A DNA stretch of 64,000 bases from a virus. A program made the translations under genes and the position numbers. The stretch spans positions 1 through 64,000 of IMG/VR virus record IMGVR_UViG_3300031758_008397. One strand, written 5' to 3'. Every line of letters begins with the position of its first letter. Position 1 is the stretch's first letter. The notes below the pieces were generated by a model that made no database searches, was not told where the DNA came from, and worked only from the letters and a program-made list of their open reading frames with translations. Positions 854 to 63,608 of this stretch are shown in pieces.

Positions 854-1910
854 ATGAAAACAATTACTTCTACATATTATAATAAAATTCAACCTCTTCT
901 ACAAAGTCTTTAGACAATTAGAAGAAGATGTAATTAATATTAATTTAGAATTAAATTATGATTGGTCTAATCTAGACTTACTTCAAATTCTAAGTAACAA
1001 AACAAGTTTAATTGATACTATAAAAGCTAATTTTAAATTAATAGAAGATTTAGAAGTTGCAGAAGAACTAGAACTAGAACTAGAACAAGATGTGTTAAAT
1101 ATTACATCTAAATTAGATTTGTTTTTACATACTTGGCAGATTAATAATCTATTCACAGCTAAGTATGATATTAATAATTGTATGTTATATGTTATAGCAG
1201 GAGCTGGTGGAACTGAAGCTTGTGATTGGGCCAAACAAATACTTCAAATGTATTATAATTGGTTAAAAGATAATAACTATAAGTATAGTTTAATTGATAT
1301 TCAAGAAGGAGATGTAACAGGTATTAAATCAGCCTGTGTACTTATTGAAGGAGATTATTCTTATGGTTATTTAAAGAATGAAAGAGGAAATCACAGACTG
1401 CAAAGAGTCTCACCTTATGGTGGAAAGGATAAAAGACATACCTCTTTTTGTGGTGTTGAAGTTGAACCTATAATTGTTAATTCTCAATTAACAATTAACC
1501 CTAAAGATCTAATAATAGATACTTTTAGAAGTGGTGGAAAAGGAGGACAAAATGTTAATAAGGTTGAAACTGCTATTAGAATAACTCACATACCAACTGG
1601 TATTGCAGTTAAATGTCAAGAGACTAGATCTCAGCATGAGAATAAGCAAAGAGCCTTAAAACTATTAACTTCTAGACTACAACTAATAAAAGATAATGAT
1701 GAATTTACAGAGCTGCAAAGTACTAAAGAAGGTGTATTAGACACTGGATTTGGAAGTAGAATAAGAACATATTCTATTCATCCATATACCCTTGTAAAGG
1801 ATGATAGAACAGAATGTCAAACGTCAGATGTATATGGATTTCTGGAAGGTAAATATCTAACAGAATTCATATTAGAAAACTTAAAAATCAAAACTCAAAA
1901 CTCAAAATAA
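854..1910 (+). CDS. prfB: peptide chain release factor 2, expressed by +1 frameshifting
   Basis: Release factor 2 ends translation at stop codons. The reading frame opens at ATG 854, runs 19 codons to CTT (908-910), meets TAG (911-913), and continues in the +1 frame from 912 to 1910, giving 351 residues; the E. coli factor has 365. The shifted N-terminal part has the expected acidic helical domain. The stop-recognition loop reads SPY at residues 186-188 (RF2 has SPF, RF1 has PxT), and the catalytic GGQ is at 230-232. The frame arrangement is that of bacterial prfB, but the in-frame stop is TAG rather than TGA. RF2 normally reads UGA and UAA, so simple self-regulation is not obvious. A 7-bp stem (895-901/919-925) encloses the shift site. 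Start at GTG 1092 without frameshifting would remove the N-terminal domain. Confidence 0.9.
908..914 (+). promoter_or_regulatory. programmed +1 frameshift site CTT TAG A in the RF2 gene
   Basis: CTT followed by a stop codon is the classical prfB slip site: the leucine tRNA on CUU can re-pair with UUU one base downstream. Here the stop is UAG instead of UGA, the next base is A rather than C, and no Shine-Dalgarno-like stimulator precedes it. The site sits in the small palindrome GTCTTTAGAC, inside the loop of a 7-bp stem. Confidence 0.8.
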
Positions 1911-4674: not shown

Positions 4675-6846
4675 ATGTTTAATACTAGACTGGAGTTAGA
4701 ACAGAGTATTGTTCTTCTAACTAAAGTTGGCTCTACTTTATATGGTACAAGTGTAGAAGGTTCTGATGTTGATAGAAGAGGCATTTGTATTGCCCCTAAA
4801 CAATATTATATTGGTATCACCCCAGAACCTTTCTACTTACAGGAAAAGAATCAATTATTTACTGATTCTGAGCCTTGTATGTATCCTTATTTAACAGGCC
4901 AAGATAGTAAGATCTTAGAACTTACAAAGATGATAGAACTGCTATTACAGAATAATCCAAACTGTTTAGACTTACTTTATAGCCCTGAATATGATGTATT
5001 AGATCCAGTTATTTATCCTCTAATTAATTTTAGAAATGCCTTTCTATGTAAGACAGCAAGATGGTCTTACGGTCAGTATGCTAAAGACCAAATTAATAAG
5101 TGTAACACTCATAGAGGGTGGTTATTAGAATATAATAAGAACCCTAACTTTTTTAATGAACAACCTAAACCAGAAGATTTTGGCCTAGATGAGAATCTAT
5201 TAAGAAAAGACTATAATATGTTTTTAGAATTATTATATGTCTTATTATTAGATGCTAAAACATTTCATCTAGATAGAGAGCCAACCTTAGAAGAGCTGTT
5301 TAGTAAGGTGGACTATAAAGGTCTGCTTATAAGAAACTATGTTCCAGATGAGGTTGAACAGTATGTTGGCTATTTAGTCAAGGCTGATTCTAATTATATG
5401 GACTATCTTAAGAGAACTAAATTGTATCTTAAGGAGTTAAATAAATATAAGAACTATCAATCCTGGAAGGCTAATAGAAACTCTAAGAGAGCTGAACTAG
5501 AAGCTAAGGTAGGTTATGATGGTAAACACCTTAAACTATAGTATAATAATATTATTGTTTATTATATAGTTTATGCGTTTACACAAAAAGGGTTATTTAA
5601 CTAAAATTGAAAATATCAAGAATGAATTTATGTTAGTTTCAGAAAAACATGAAGATCAATATCTAAGTAATACATTCTTAAAAAAATAATGGCTATAATT
5701 ATTTACTTTGTGCTATACAAAGAACTGGATTATCATTTAGTGAATTTTTAACTTATATAAATTATGAGATTAAGTTTACACCTAAGAATTATTATAAAGA
5801 TATTAATAATGTAAATACTGAAATATATAAGTTAGTTGATAAGTATGGGTATTTTCCCTTAGATCCATCAATAATAAGTATAGAACATAAATCTCAGTTA
5901 GTATCATGTTTACCTAAATTTCATAACATAACTCTAGTACAACATTTAAAAGCATTAAATTTATATGTTAAGAATACTAAGTCTTGTCTTGAAATATATG
6001 TAAAATCATTACTTGATAAATTCATATTAGATAAAAACTTTATTGATAATGGAAGAAAACAATTACTTGAAAAAGGTCTTTTACTAAAGAATCCTGAAAC
6101 TAATATGTTTTTAGAATTAGATAGATATTATTTTGATGCTAAAGTAGCTATAGAAATTCAAGGTCAACAACATTATAAAGAAACTAAATTTTGGGATAAA
6201 TCTAGACTAAATGATGTTAGAAAAATTGATCAGATTAAAAGAGAATTGCTAAAAGAACAAAATATTCATTTAATTGAAATACATTATCAAAGAATTGGTA
6301 AACAAACTATATATGATCAGTTAGAATACTCTGGGGTGTTAAAACTCTGTGAAAAGGAGAAACTCTTTGAATAAAGACAATTCCTTACCAAGCTATATTT
6401 GAAAGAATGTAGAAAGGTCTAACGACTAGATATGAGGCTAAGGAGCAATCTATGCCAATAAAATTATCCAAGAGCGCAGGGGAACGGTTTATCTAATATA
6501 AACACGAAGAAATAGTCTGAACTATATGGTGACATATAGAATTATAGGATAAAGAGCCTATAAGATAACAAAATTGGGACACGCTGTAAGGCTATATACT
6601 ATGGCTTGTGAGATAGTTGAAAGTCAACAAGTCTTAGTTGACAGAAAGGCTGTTGGTGATGTTGACTATTTGAAAGCTATTAGACAAGGTAATGTTACAT
6701 ATGATGAAATATTAATTTATGTAACACAACTAGAAGCTAGATTAGAAAAAGCTTTTATTGATACAAAATTACCAGAAAAACCAAACACTAGTCTTATTAG
6801 TGAATTACAAATACAAATAATAGAAAATTACTCTTTTAAAAACTAA
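4675..6846 (+). CDS. COG3541-type nucleotidyltransferase, split by a group I intron
   Basis: Exon 1 is 4675-5532 and exon 2 is 6577-6846, giving 375 residues after splicing. Exon 1 has the nucleotidyltransferase signature GSTLYGT-x5-SDVDRRG (residues about 18-36), with the aspartates expected to bind metal. Joining the exons restores the family's conserved stretch around YDGKH-LGHAVRLYTMACEI: exon 1 ends at CTT, exon 2 begins GGA CAC. Without splicing, the first exon stops two codons after the junction. Phage homologues of this family are common, but the substrate is unknown. The final stop abuts the next ATG at 6847. Confidence 0.8.
5533..6576 (+). mobile_element. group I intron (A) in the nucleotidyltransferase gene
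   Basis: The 5' exon ends in T and the intron ends in G, as group I rules require. The 3' part has the core strands AACGACTAGA (near 6420) and GAAATAGTCTGAAC (near 6507), matching the P7 helix strands of phage introns such as T4 td, followed by the tail GGATAAAGAGCC-TATAAGATAACAAAATTG, shared with introns B and D. A stem AAACTATA/TATAGTTT lies at the 5' end. The loop encodes a homing endonuclease with a frameshift. Confidence 0.85.
5573..6374 (+). pseudogene. intron-encoded homing endonuclease, frameshifted
   Basis: The frame opens at ATG 5573 and hits TAA (5687-5689) right after a run of seven A (5680-5686). Coding resumes one base over and runs without a stop to 6374. The C-terminal part, from about 6105, has a Vsr- or PD-(D/E)XK-like nuclease pattern: LELDRYYFDAKVAIEIQGQQHY followed by KIDQIKRELL. 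A one-base insertion in the A run, slippage, or an assembly error would each explain the break. As read, the nuclease would be inactive, or only a short C-terminal form would be made. Confidence 0.65.
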
Positions 6847-60086: not shown

Positions 60087-63000
60087 ATGTTAGTTGAATT
60101 TGAGTTAAATAAAGAAGAACAAGATATTAAACCTGACTTTGGTCCTGTAGGTTCTATTGTTGATATTAGAACATATAGAAGATGGCTGCCAAATAAAAAA
60201 AGAAGAGAGACATTTGTAGAAAGAAATGCAAGAGTAGTAGATGCTAATTTAGACCTTGTTAAAGATATTATTAGTGATCAAGAGTATGAGTTAGAAAGAT
60301 CTACTATGATGGATCATATGAATAAATTACTAGCTCTGCCTTCTGGTAGAAGTATGTGGATTGCAGGCACTGAAGCTAATAAAAAACATCCTGCTTCATC
60401 CTTCAATTGTTCAGCTTTAGCTATTAATAGAATAGAAGCTTTTACAACTGTATTTGAACTGTTAATGCTTGGTACTGGTGTTGGATTTAGAGTGTTTGGC
60501 TCTGATATTAATGAGCTGTCAAATATTAAGAAGTTTGATATATTGTTTGATTCTTATAACCCAAAGCCTAAACATGAGAGAATTGAAAGTACCATTGTAA
60601 GTTATTCTAAGAATGCAACTATTGTACAGGTTGGGGATAGTAGAGAAGGATGGATACATGCTTTACACGCTCTCTTAGAAATAGCTTTTTGTATAAATAA
60701 AGATACGTCTATCTCATTTAATTTTGATTCTGTTAGACCATTAGGTGAGAGAATTAATGGTTTTGGTGGCACGGCTAGTGGTCATGAAGCATTAAAGAAT
60801 TTGCTTAAAGATGTCTTTGATATCTTTAATGAATGTCCGGATAGTAAGCTTAGAAGTATTGATTGTTTAGATATTTGTTGTGCTATTGCTAAGGGTGTTG
60901 TAGCTGGTAATACTAGAAGATCTGCATTACTTTGTCTCTTTGAAGAAGGTGATGACCTAATGGCCAATGCTAAGGTAAACCTATTTGATGATCCTACTTT
61001 AAAGGGTAAGTATTATAGAATTCAAAGTAATAATACTGAAGCATTAGGCACCCCTTATTTATCTGAATTAAGAGAGTTTCTAGAAGCCAATCCAGATGTT
61101 TCTAAAGAAGATTTATTCAAGTTTATTGATAAGTACAAACCTTCTGTTGAATGGTTAAAAGAAAGATTTAAAGTAATTGCTAATGCTGGTGATCCAGGCT
61201 TTGCTAACTATTTGAAGATGGTTGGTAAGAAGTGGTTAGCTGTTAGAAAGCACAGACCTGATTTTGATGTTAAGAAAATCTGGGAATATTTTTGTGATAT
61301 TTGTACGAACCCATGCCACGAAATAATTTTGTCTGTAGGTTATAAAGATGGTAAAGGAACTGGATTTTGCAATTTAACAACTCTTCCAATTAATAAATTT
61401 GTTATTAAAAAATGTAATAATAATGATTTATGTGCAGTTACTGGTTATAAGCTAGATGAGAAAGCTTTAGAACAAGCTATTAAACTTACAGTTAGAATAG
61501 CTACAAGACAAACCTTTGTTACTATGCCTAGAGCTGAACTAGATGATACTCAGAAAGCTGAAAGATTGTTGGGAGTGTCAGTCACTGGTTGGATTCAATT
61601 ATTTAATAAACTAGATTTGTCTTATACAGAACAAGAAGACTTAATGACTAAGTTAAATGACTGGGCTAATGATGAAGCAACTACATATGCTAATAAGTTA
61701 GGTATTGAAAGACCCTTAATGGTGTGTTGTATTAAACCAGAGGGGTGCGGAAAAATTTCACATATAAGAACAACAACTGAAGGTTTATTAAGAGTTGATG
61801 AGATCGGAGATGTATCTAAATTAGGTTTTAATAAAGTTGATACAAACAATACAACAACTAAAGGATTTTCTATTAGAAGTGTATATAATAACGGCTTATC
61901 TAAAGTTGTAAAAATTAAACTAAACAATGGAAGAGAATTAGTATTTACACTCCAACATCCTTTTAGTGTAAATGGTTTATGGAAAAATGCTGTTAATTTA
62001 AAGAAAGGCGATGTATTAGATATTGAATTAGATACTTATAATAAAGTAACTAATGAATTACTAGCAAATTACAGTGCTAAATATAATCATTTAAGAAAAG
62101 AAGATTTATTATTTCCTAAAGAAATAACTAATGATTTATCTTGGTGGGTTGCTAGTGTATTTGCTAATGGTAGTGTAACTAATCATGCAATTAGTTTCTA
62201 TTCAGGATATATAGAAGTAGTACAAAAGTTTGTTGATTTAAGCAATAGTTTATTTAATATTTCTACTGTTGCTACAAAAGATAAAATAAAAGATATGTAT
62301 AGGGTAAATATTAATTCTACAGATTTAGTTGAATATTTAAAGCTTAATGGTTTATTAAAGACAAAAAACTTTACTATTCCTCTTATTATTAGAAGATCTA
62401 GTAGAGAAGCTTTACTATCTTTTATTTGTGGTTATTTAGATAATGATGGCTGCTTTAAAAACAAAGGATGTAGTATTACTACAAAGAATGAAAACTTTGC
62501 AAGAATGTTACAAGAAGTTGGAGAAGCAGTAGGGCTATCATTTAGTTGTTATGATTATACAAGAGAAACAACTAAAAGTATTGGCATTTATTATGACTTA
62601 CAGTTAAGTAGAACTTATTCAACTAATAGAGCTATTGATTTTATTAACAGTAATAGTATTAAAGCTAAATTAAATGGCTTTATTATTTCAAGTGATAAGA
62701 GTCATAAAAATCCTTATAAGGTTGATAGTGTTGAAGTATTAGAAGAGTTAATTAACACTTATGATATAGAAGTAGATGATCCTCATTGGTATTATCAAGG
62801 TGGTATTAAATCGCATAATACTGGCTCTAAAGTATTAGGCTCTTCTAGTGGAGTTCATTGGGATTGGGCACCTTATTATATTAATAGAATTCAAATGGGC
62901 GCTAATGATGCTCTTGCTAAGACATTAAAAGATCAGGGCTTTAGCTGGATTCCAACTCCTTATGATTTACTTAAACTATATAATGATCAAGTTGAAGTGT

Positions 63001-63608
63001 TTAGTAATAATAATGTTATTAGATTATTTCAAAGGTTATTAGTTAGGTTTAATATTACTAAATCAAAATATGAGCCAAAGTTTAAAGATGTTTGGAGTAG
63101 AATTGAACACTTTAGATCTCTAACTGATAAGGATAAACAAGAAGCCTTTAACAATTCTAATGCAGTTTTATTTGAGTTTCCTGTTAACTCTGGTATGGTT
63201 GAATCTCAAGGTAGTGTAAGTGCTAGTAGACAGTTGCAAAATGTACTTAGATTTACTGATTGTTATGTTGATCATATGGTGTCTTCTACTATTACAGCTA
63301 AAGAAGATGAATGGGATAACTTAGCAGAAGAGTTACATCAAGAAAAGAATTGGTTTAGATTTATTAATGCGGCCTTCTTATCTTATTACAGTGGTAATCA
63401 TCCTCTTCTTCCTAATGAAGAAATAACAGAAGAAGTCTATAACAAGATGATGTCTTCTTTCAAGCAGTCTGAGTGGGTTAAAGATGGCAAGTTCTATGTC
63501 AATGAAGATCTATTAGCTAAATTAGAACAAGCAGCTTTAAGAGCTAATGTTGATATTGATGATGTTGATTTAGGTGCTTCTTGTCAAGGGGCATGTCCCG
63601 TCCGTTAA
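60087..63608 (+). CDS. nrdJ: class II (B12-dependent) ribonucleotide reductase with intein
   Basis: A 1173-residue precursor; removing the intein (residues 554-911) leaves 815. It makes deoxyribonucleotides using adenosylcobalamin. Seen are PSGRSMW near residue 82, FNCSAL near 102, GTGVGF near 128, VAGNTRRSAL, GFCNLTT and the C-terminal CQGACPVR, like the redox cysteines of the Lactobacillus-type enzyme. The gene supplies nucleotides and needs vitamin B12 from the host. A TTAAGTTTG motif precedes it. Confidence 0.9.
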   Translation: MLVEFELNKEEQDIKPDFGPVGSIVDIRTYRRWLPNKKRRETFVERNARVVDANLDLVKDIISDQEYELERSTMMDHMNKLLALPSGRSMWIAGTEANKKHPASSFNCSALAINRIEAFTTVFELLMLGTGVGFRVFGSDINELSNIKKFDILFDSYNPKPKHERIESTIVSYSKNATIVQVGDSREGWIHALHALLEIAFCINKDTSISFNFDSVRPLGERINGFGGTASGHEALKNLLKDVFDIFNECPDSKLRSIDCLDICCAIAKGVVAGNTRRSALLCLFEEGDDLMANAKVNLFDDPTLKGKYYRIQSNNTEALGTPYLSELREFLEANPDVSKEDLFKFIDKYKPSVEWLKERFKVIANAGDPGFANYLKMVGKKWLAVRKHRPDFDVKKIWEYFCDICTNPCHEIILSVGYKDGKGTGFCNLTTLPINKFVIKKCNNNDLCAVTGYKLDEKALEQAIKLTVRIATRQTFVTMPRAELDDTQKAERLLGVSVTGWIQLFNKLDLSYTEQEDLMTKLNDWANDEATTYANKLGIERPLMVCCIKPEGCGKISHIRTTTEGLLRVDEIGDVSKLGFNKVDTNNTTTKGFSIRSVYNNGLSKVVKIKLNNGRELVFTLQHPFSVNGLWKNAVNLKKGDVLDIELDTYNKVTNELLANYSAKYNHLRKEDLLFPKEITNDLSWWVASVFANGSVTNHAISFYSGYIEVVQKFVDLSNSLFNISTVATKDKIKDMYRVNINSTDLVEYLKLNGLLKTKNFTIPLIIRRSSREALLSFICGYLDNDGCFKNKGCSITTKNENFARMLQEVGEAVGLSFSCYDYTRETTKSIGIYYDLQLSRTYSTNRAIDFINSNSIKAKLNGFIISSDKSHKNPYKVDSVEVLEELINTYDIEVDDPHWYYQGGIKSHNTGSKVLGSSSGVHWDWAPYYINRIQMGANDALAKTLKDQGFSWIPTPYDLLKLYNDQVEVFSNNNVIRLFQRLLVRFNITKSKYEPKFKDVWSRIEHFRSLTDKDKQEAFNNSNAVLFEFPVNSGMVESQGSVSASRQLQNVLRFTDCYVDHMVSSTITAKEDEWDNLAEELHQEKNWFRFINAAFLSYYSGNHPLLPNEEITEEVYNKMMSSFKQSEWVKDGKFYVNEDLLAKLEQAALRANVDIDDVDLGASCQGACPVR
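61746..62819 (+). mobile_element. intein with LAGLIDADG homing domain in the reductase
   Basis: 358 residues. It begins with Cys (KPEG-CGKISH) and ends HN before Thr (SHN-TGS). Splicing motifs include LQHPFSVNG (block B, His) and DIEVDDPHWYYQGGIKSHN (blocks F and G). LAGLIDADG-like helices are WWVASVFANGSV and LSFICGYLDNDGCF. The first has Asn where the catalytic Asp is expected, so nuclease activity may be weak. Confidence 0.88.

Follow-up and report, generated by a model that had tools for sequence, protein, structure and literature searches.

Frameshift motifs and codon recognition in bacterial release factors

In bacterial prfB a short open reading frame (ORF0) ends with a CTT codon next to a premature stop codon readable by release factor 2 (RF2), i.e. 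TGA or TAA, and the RF2 body follows in the +1 frame. A Shine-Dalgarno-like (SD) element is found 3 nt before the CTT and a C is present at the +4 position, which gives the canonical form AGGGGG-TAT-CTT-TGA-C. A 2025 survey covered 8,164 frameshift motifs of bacterial prfB and recorded the stop as TGA in 98.6%, TAA in 1.4% and TAG in none; the absence of TAG was taken there as showing that the universal purpose of the motif is RF2 autoregulation (PMC12421855). Shift-site tests in E. coli with UAG as the next codon show CUU_U to be by far the most efficient (PMC5009743).

With respect to codon recognition, the third stop-codon base is contacted through a bond by Gln181 of Thermus thermophilus RF1 (PMC3974865). 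This residue has been called critical for recognition of G at the third position (PMC6821328), however the need of Gln181 for UAG is disputed by a later paper (PMC12574857). The RF2 tripeptide is given as SP(F/Y) (Baranov 2006; PMC1586002). RF2-lineage factors are also carried by phages, e.g. the Lak phages.

The prfB locus at positions 854–1910

The window analyzed here is a 64,000 nt stretch of phage DNA and represents positions 1 to 64,000 of the IMG/VR record IMGVR_UViG_3300031758_008397 (86,280 bp). The features of the prfB locus are on the + strand. ORF0 (854–913) starts with ATG at 854–856, has 19 codons (MKTITSTYYNKIQPLLQSL) and ends at an in-frame TAG. The slip site CTT TAG is at 908–913, with CTT at 908–910 and TAG at 911–913. 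The +1 frame (912–1910), which encodes the release factor body, is open from AGA at 912–914 through to the TAA at 1910. A single four-base step, in which CTTT is read as Leu, gives a 351 residue protein and no further exception is needed. In this step the P-site tRNA on CTT would shift +1 to TTT (909–911) and AGA would then be in the A site. CTT constitutes 1.5% of the codons of the phage.

The two frames confirm the original prediction of a 19 codon ORF0, a CTT-stop with TAG, a +1 continuation and a GGQ motif. The same prediction assigned the gene the exact architecture of bacterial prfB, and this holds in part. The short ORF0, the CTT beside the stop, the +1 body and the RF2 product are as in bacteria. 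However the stop is TAG, the site reads CTACAA-AGT-CTT-TAG-A with no SD-like sequence upstream, and the +4 base is A where the canonical base is C. In addition, most bacterial relatives have 173 or 177 codons between the slip site and the reading loop; here there are 160, thus domain 1 of the phage factor is shorter. Stimulatory RNA structure downstream of the slip site is not significant (z −0.85). With no SD element, this site may shift weakly.

Ancestry and codon-reading loop of the phage factor

By its match to PF00472 (E = 1.2e-37) the translated sequence belongs to the class-I release factors. The best family model is TIGR00020 prfB with 331 bits, versus 222 for prfA, and the curated NCBIfam cut-off of 370 is not reached. 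In both phylogenetic trees the factor is inside the RF2 clade, and outside the RF1 clade, with 100/100 support and on a long branch. Of 18 columns diagnostic for RF1 or RF2, ten are RF2-like, two are RF1-like and six are neither.

The codon-reading region, HRLQRVSPYGGKDKRHTSF, is at positions 1392–1448 and displays the loop LQRVSPY. The GGQ catalytic motif is at 1542–1550. The tripeptide SPY (1410–1418) is of the RF2 type, with the RF2 Ser retained, and the PxT motif of RF1 is absent. The two RF1-like columns, Gln183 and Val185, are both in the reading loop. Val185 is also seen in some RF2s, but Gln183 is not. Gln183 (CAA, 1401–1403) is at the position of T. thermophilus RF1 Gln181 and, like the latter, is followed by Arg-Val. 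In the alignment this third-base position has Gln in 19 of 19 sampled RF1s and Val in 42 of 42 sampled bacterial RF2s. Val is also present in all 80 of the nearest bacterial RF2 loci. RF2s have Val (or Ile/Met) here, and the phage factor departs from them in this residue while it has both the SP(F/Y) tripeptide and the GGQ expected of an RF2.

Because the loop joins the RF2 Ser at the tripeptide with an RF1-type Gln at the third-base pocket, this factor of RF2 descent is most likely able to read UAG in addition to UAA, as judged from its sequence. The original prediction had also raised UAG reading, on the ground that the tripeptide is SPY and not SPF. That ground does not stand, as SPY is an ordinary RF2 variant in Bacteroidota, present in 6 of 41 RF2 pattern matches from 41 genomes. 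It is the Gln, which had been missed, that matters. The Lak phage RF2 displays SPY as well; unlike the factor described here, it has Val in the loop and starts at an ATG in the release factor frame.

A second locus in a jumbo phage

A comparable gene is present in L210 and L211, contigs of an unrelated jumbo phage (IMGVR_UViG_3300025930_000007 and IMGVR_UViG_3300005544_000020; 266,490 and 236,090 bp). The two are identical across the 3.7-kb locus and may be assemblies of related samples. The L210 gene is of RF2 lineage, with a prfB score of 378 that is over the curated cut-off. It has AAAGGAGG before the ATG, a 23 codon ORF0 and then GAGGAG-TCG-CTT-TAG-C as the slip site, after which the +1 frame encodes the body. 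Thus, with an SD element, a 3-nt spacer and the +4 C, it is a canonical prfB site, but with TAG. Downstream of this TAG there is a strong hairpin (z −3.2). The loop is G-V-H-R-V-Q-H-V-S-R-F-D and has Gln at the same position as Gln183.

The genetic code appears standard in the five 20-kb stretches of L210 that were sampled. These contain 25 tRNAs, none of which is a suppressor; two are tRNA-Leu(GAG), the reader of CTT. The Gln factors of the two phages may go back to one origin or to two, between which the tree comparison does not discriminate (p-AU 0.29). The pairing of TAG with Gln in L210 suggests, by sequence comparison, that switch and protein were retuned together, and it is the decisive support for this view.

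Occurrence of TAG slip stops and Gln loops

Among the 80 nearest bacterial RF2 loci, 67 have CTT TGA, 10 have CTT TAA and 3 are without a site. A further 39 loci, RF1 loci included, show CTT TGA C in 19. No TAG slip stop is found in the approximately 96 slip-bearing bacterial RF2s examined. CTT TAA, which is one step away from TAG, occurs in several Ignavibacteria. Across the slip-bearing RF2-lineage genes examined, the slip stop is TAG in the window and in L210, and TGA or TAA in about 97 others.

A degenerate pattern for Gln-loop RF2s, of the type G-x-x-H-R-L-Q-R-[VIM]-S-P-[FY], has no match in 296 genomes of a Bacteroidota sample or 292 of a cyanobacterial sample (0/588 in total). The Val version of the pattern matches 40 of 41 genomes of Bacteroidota. 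With the window's own record left out, a first Gln pattern (LQR + SP[FY]) has no match in IMG/VR, and a broader one, written so as to leave out RF1, matches only L210/L211. The searches of the bacterial genomes and of IMG/VR both demand an exact match, therefore loops that differ elsewhere would escape them.

In the slip-bearing genes of RF2 lineage that were examined, TAG and Gln are found together in two and never apart, and the approximately 97 TGA/TAA slip sites (96 bacterial and the phage locus L004) are accompanied by Val or Met in the loop. If the rows were independent the chance of this split would be near 2e-4 (1 in 4,851, a hand calculation on the counts). This is only a rough guide, given the relatedness among the bacterial rows and the fact that a search led to the second case.

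Other phage loci were observed as well. L004 has at positions 2780–2880 a prfB with the slip site AGGAG-TTC-CTT-TGA-T; it too is a phage-carried RF2-lineage gene, but differs from that of the window in this site and in the Met at the loop position. The phage RF2 gene of L160 displays CTTTAGC near position 5172, close to the canonical position. It has a stop four codons upstream and its own in-frame ATG, and for these reasons was discounted as a coincidence or as a remnant without function; it is possibly the remnant of a frameshift site. L223, a 232-kb contig, encodes an RF1-type factor with the loop HRVQRVPET and is without a slip site.

A proposed match between slip stop and factor specificity

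The reading that we prefer, with a probability of roughly 0.6, is that the gene encodes an RF2-descended phage factor which is made by +1 frameshifting at CTT-TAG, reads UAG and is autoregulated through the matching slip stop. With little UAG-reading activity present, the ribosome would pause at UAG, the CTT tRNA would slip to TTT and the full-length factor would be made. When this activity is high, ORF0 would be terminated. The stop at the slip site would have moved along with the specificity, from TGA to TAG and probably with TAA as the intermediate, and prfB autoregulation would thus keep its logic. Counting against this are the lack of an SD-like element, of a +4 C and of significant downstream structure at the window's site, and the occurrence of the TAG and Gln pair in two lineages only. 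Engineered RF2s that read UAG also misread UGG, according to work cited in PMC13245932, and this is a cost that the phage factor would have to bear.

The original prediction had posed two possibilities, sensing of RF1 or reading of UAG. Gln183 and the L210 locus favor the second. In the first, the factor would keep the RF2 specificity for UAA and UGA, and the UAG slip site would gauge RF1, with the factor made when RF1 is scarce. Since host RF1, the standard UAG reader, also reads this stop, such sensing has some plausibility, and it is consistent with the SPY tripeptide, with the RF2 character of most diagnostic positions and with the absence of a phage-encoded RF1 in the contigs of this phage. 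However it leaves unexplained why the third-base Gln is present in both TAG-slip factors and in no other RF2-lineage factor examined, and why TAG is missing from the 8,164 motifs of bacteria, which normally have RF1 (PMC12421855). We consider sensing of RF1 unlikely.

If the slip stop and the specificity are matched, the combination of a TAG slip stop and a reading residue of the RF1 type would be the exception that backs the rule, i.e. that the regulatory stop tracks the specificity of the factor. It would also offer a natural test of an RF2 that gained UAG reading, a change for which engineered RF2 reportedly pays by misreading UGG (cited in PMC13245932). More generally, there is perhaps an even chance that phages of two lineages carry RF2-derived factors with specificity extended to UAG and a matched slip stop, which would be natural, self-regulated and possibly all-codon RF2s.

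Origin of the CTT TAG sequence

Another explanation starts from a phage prfB without interruption that read CTT AGA. One T would then have been added, by real insertion or by artefact, and CTT TAG would be accidental. The frame is open on either side of one extra T, the site has neither SD nor +4 C, and most phage RF2 genes seen begin at an in-frame ATG and are without a slip site. The slip site of the window is known from one contig, because the other contigs of this phage stop short of prfB. The window's record (G000) overlaps the same-phage contigs G001 (128,561 bp) and G002 (63,548 bp), and 164,048 bp are covered when it is merged with G001. Both contigs carry the same DNA polymerase as the record, and neither reaches prfB.

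Where the contigs do overlap (G000/G001 over 50.8 kb and G000/G002 over 63.5 kb), the three differ only by one 2-nt indel in a TA microsatellite and four distinct substitutions, which argues against insertion. An assembly error as the source of CTT TAG is unlikely. In 80,520 simulated one-base insertions into the phage's own genes, CTT followed by a stop arose in 2.3% and CTT TAG in just 0.14%. In addition, L210 shows the same TAG with the canonical SD and +4 C, and does so in two contigs. An accidental insertion of either kind thus appears improbable.

Modelled fold of the fused protein

The AlphaFold2 model of the fused protein has a mean pLDDT of 83, and the closest solved structures are RF2s. 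A modelled helix at residues 4–33 crosses the junction of ORF0 and the +1 frame at L19, so that the peptide from ORF0 is joined with +1-frame residues in a single element of domain 1. Factors of the prfH type have no domain 1, and the model is unlike these in having a helical domain 1 of three helices at residues 4–97. The model supports the fused product but not programmed slippage as such, because an uninterrupted gene gives the same protein.

A start within the +1 frame, at the GTG at 1092 or at a rare AUU/AUA, would give a shortened factor without domain 1 and make ORF0 irrelevant, and although in vitro release does not require domain 1 (PMC1586002), this is very hard to credit given that positions 912–1091 encode a domain 1 which is modelled as helical and runs on from ORF0, and that no in-frame ATG is found upstream of 1092.

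Genetic code and gene content of the phage

The phage uses the standard code. The 181 called open reading frames end with TAA in 136 cases, TAG in 26 and TGA in 19. Recoding, including code 15 (TAG recoded), was rejected, as coding density shows no appreciable rise when TAG or TGA is read as sense and no suppressor is among the six tRNAs found in the phage. Apart from the factor described here, the 86,280 bp of the record encode no class-I release factor.

A tRNA-Trp(CCA) gene is located outside of the window, at record positions 68861–68934 (L002:4861–4934); any link between it and the misreading of UGG is speculation. Upstream of prfB are two adjacent DUF2442 genes at positions 236–839, and these are preceded by a tRNA-Glu at 105–178. 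An RlaP-like RNA-repair protein of the polymerase-beta family (PF10127) is encoded at 4675–5541, and at 60087–63608 an intein that contains a LAGLIDADG domain splits a ribonucleotide reductase.
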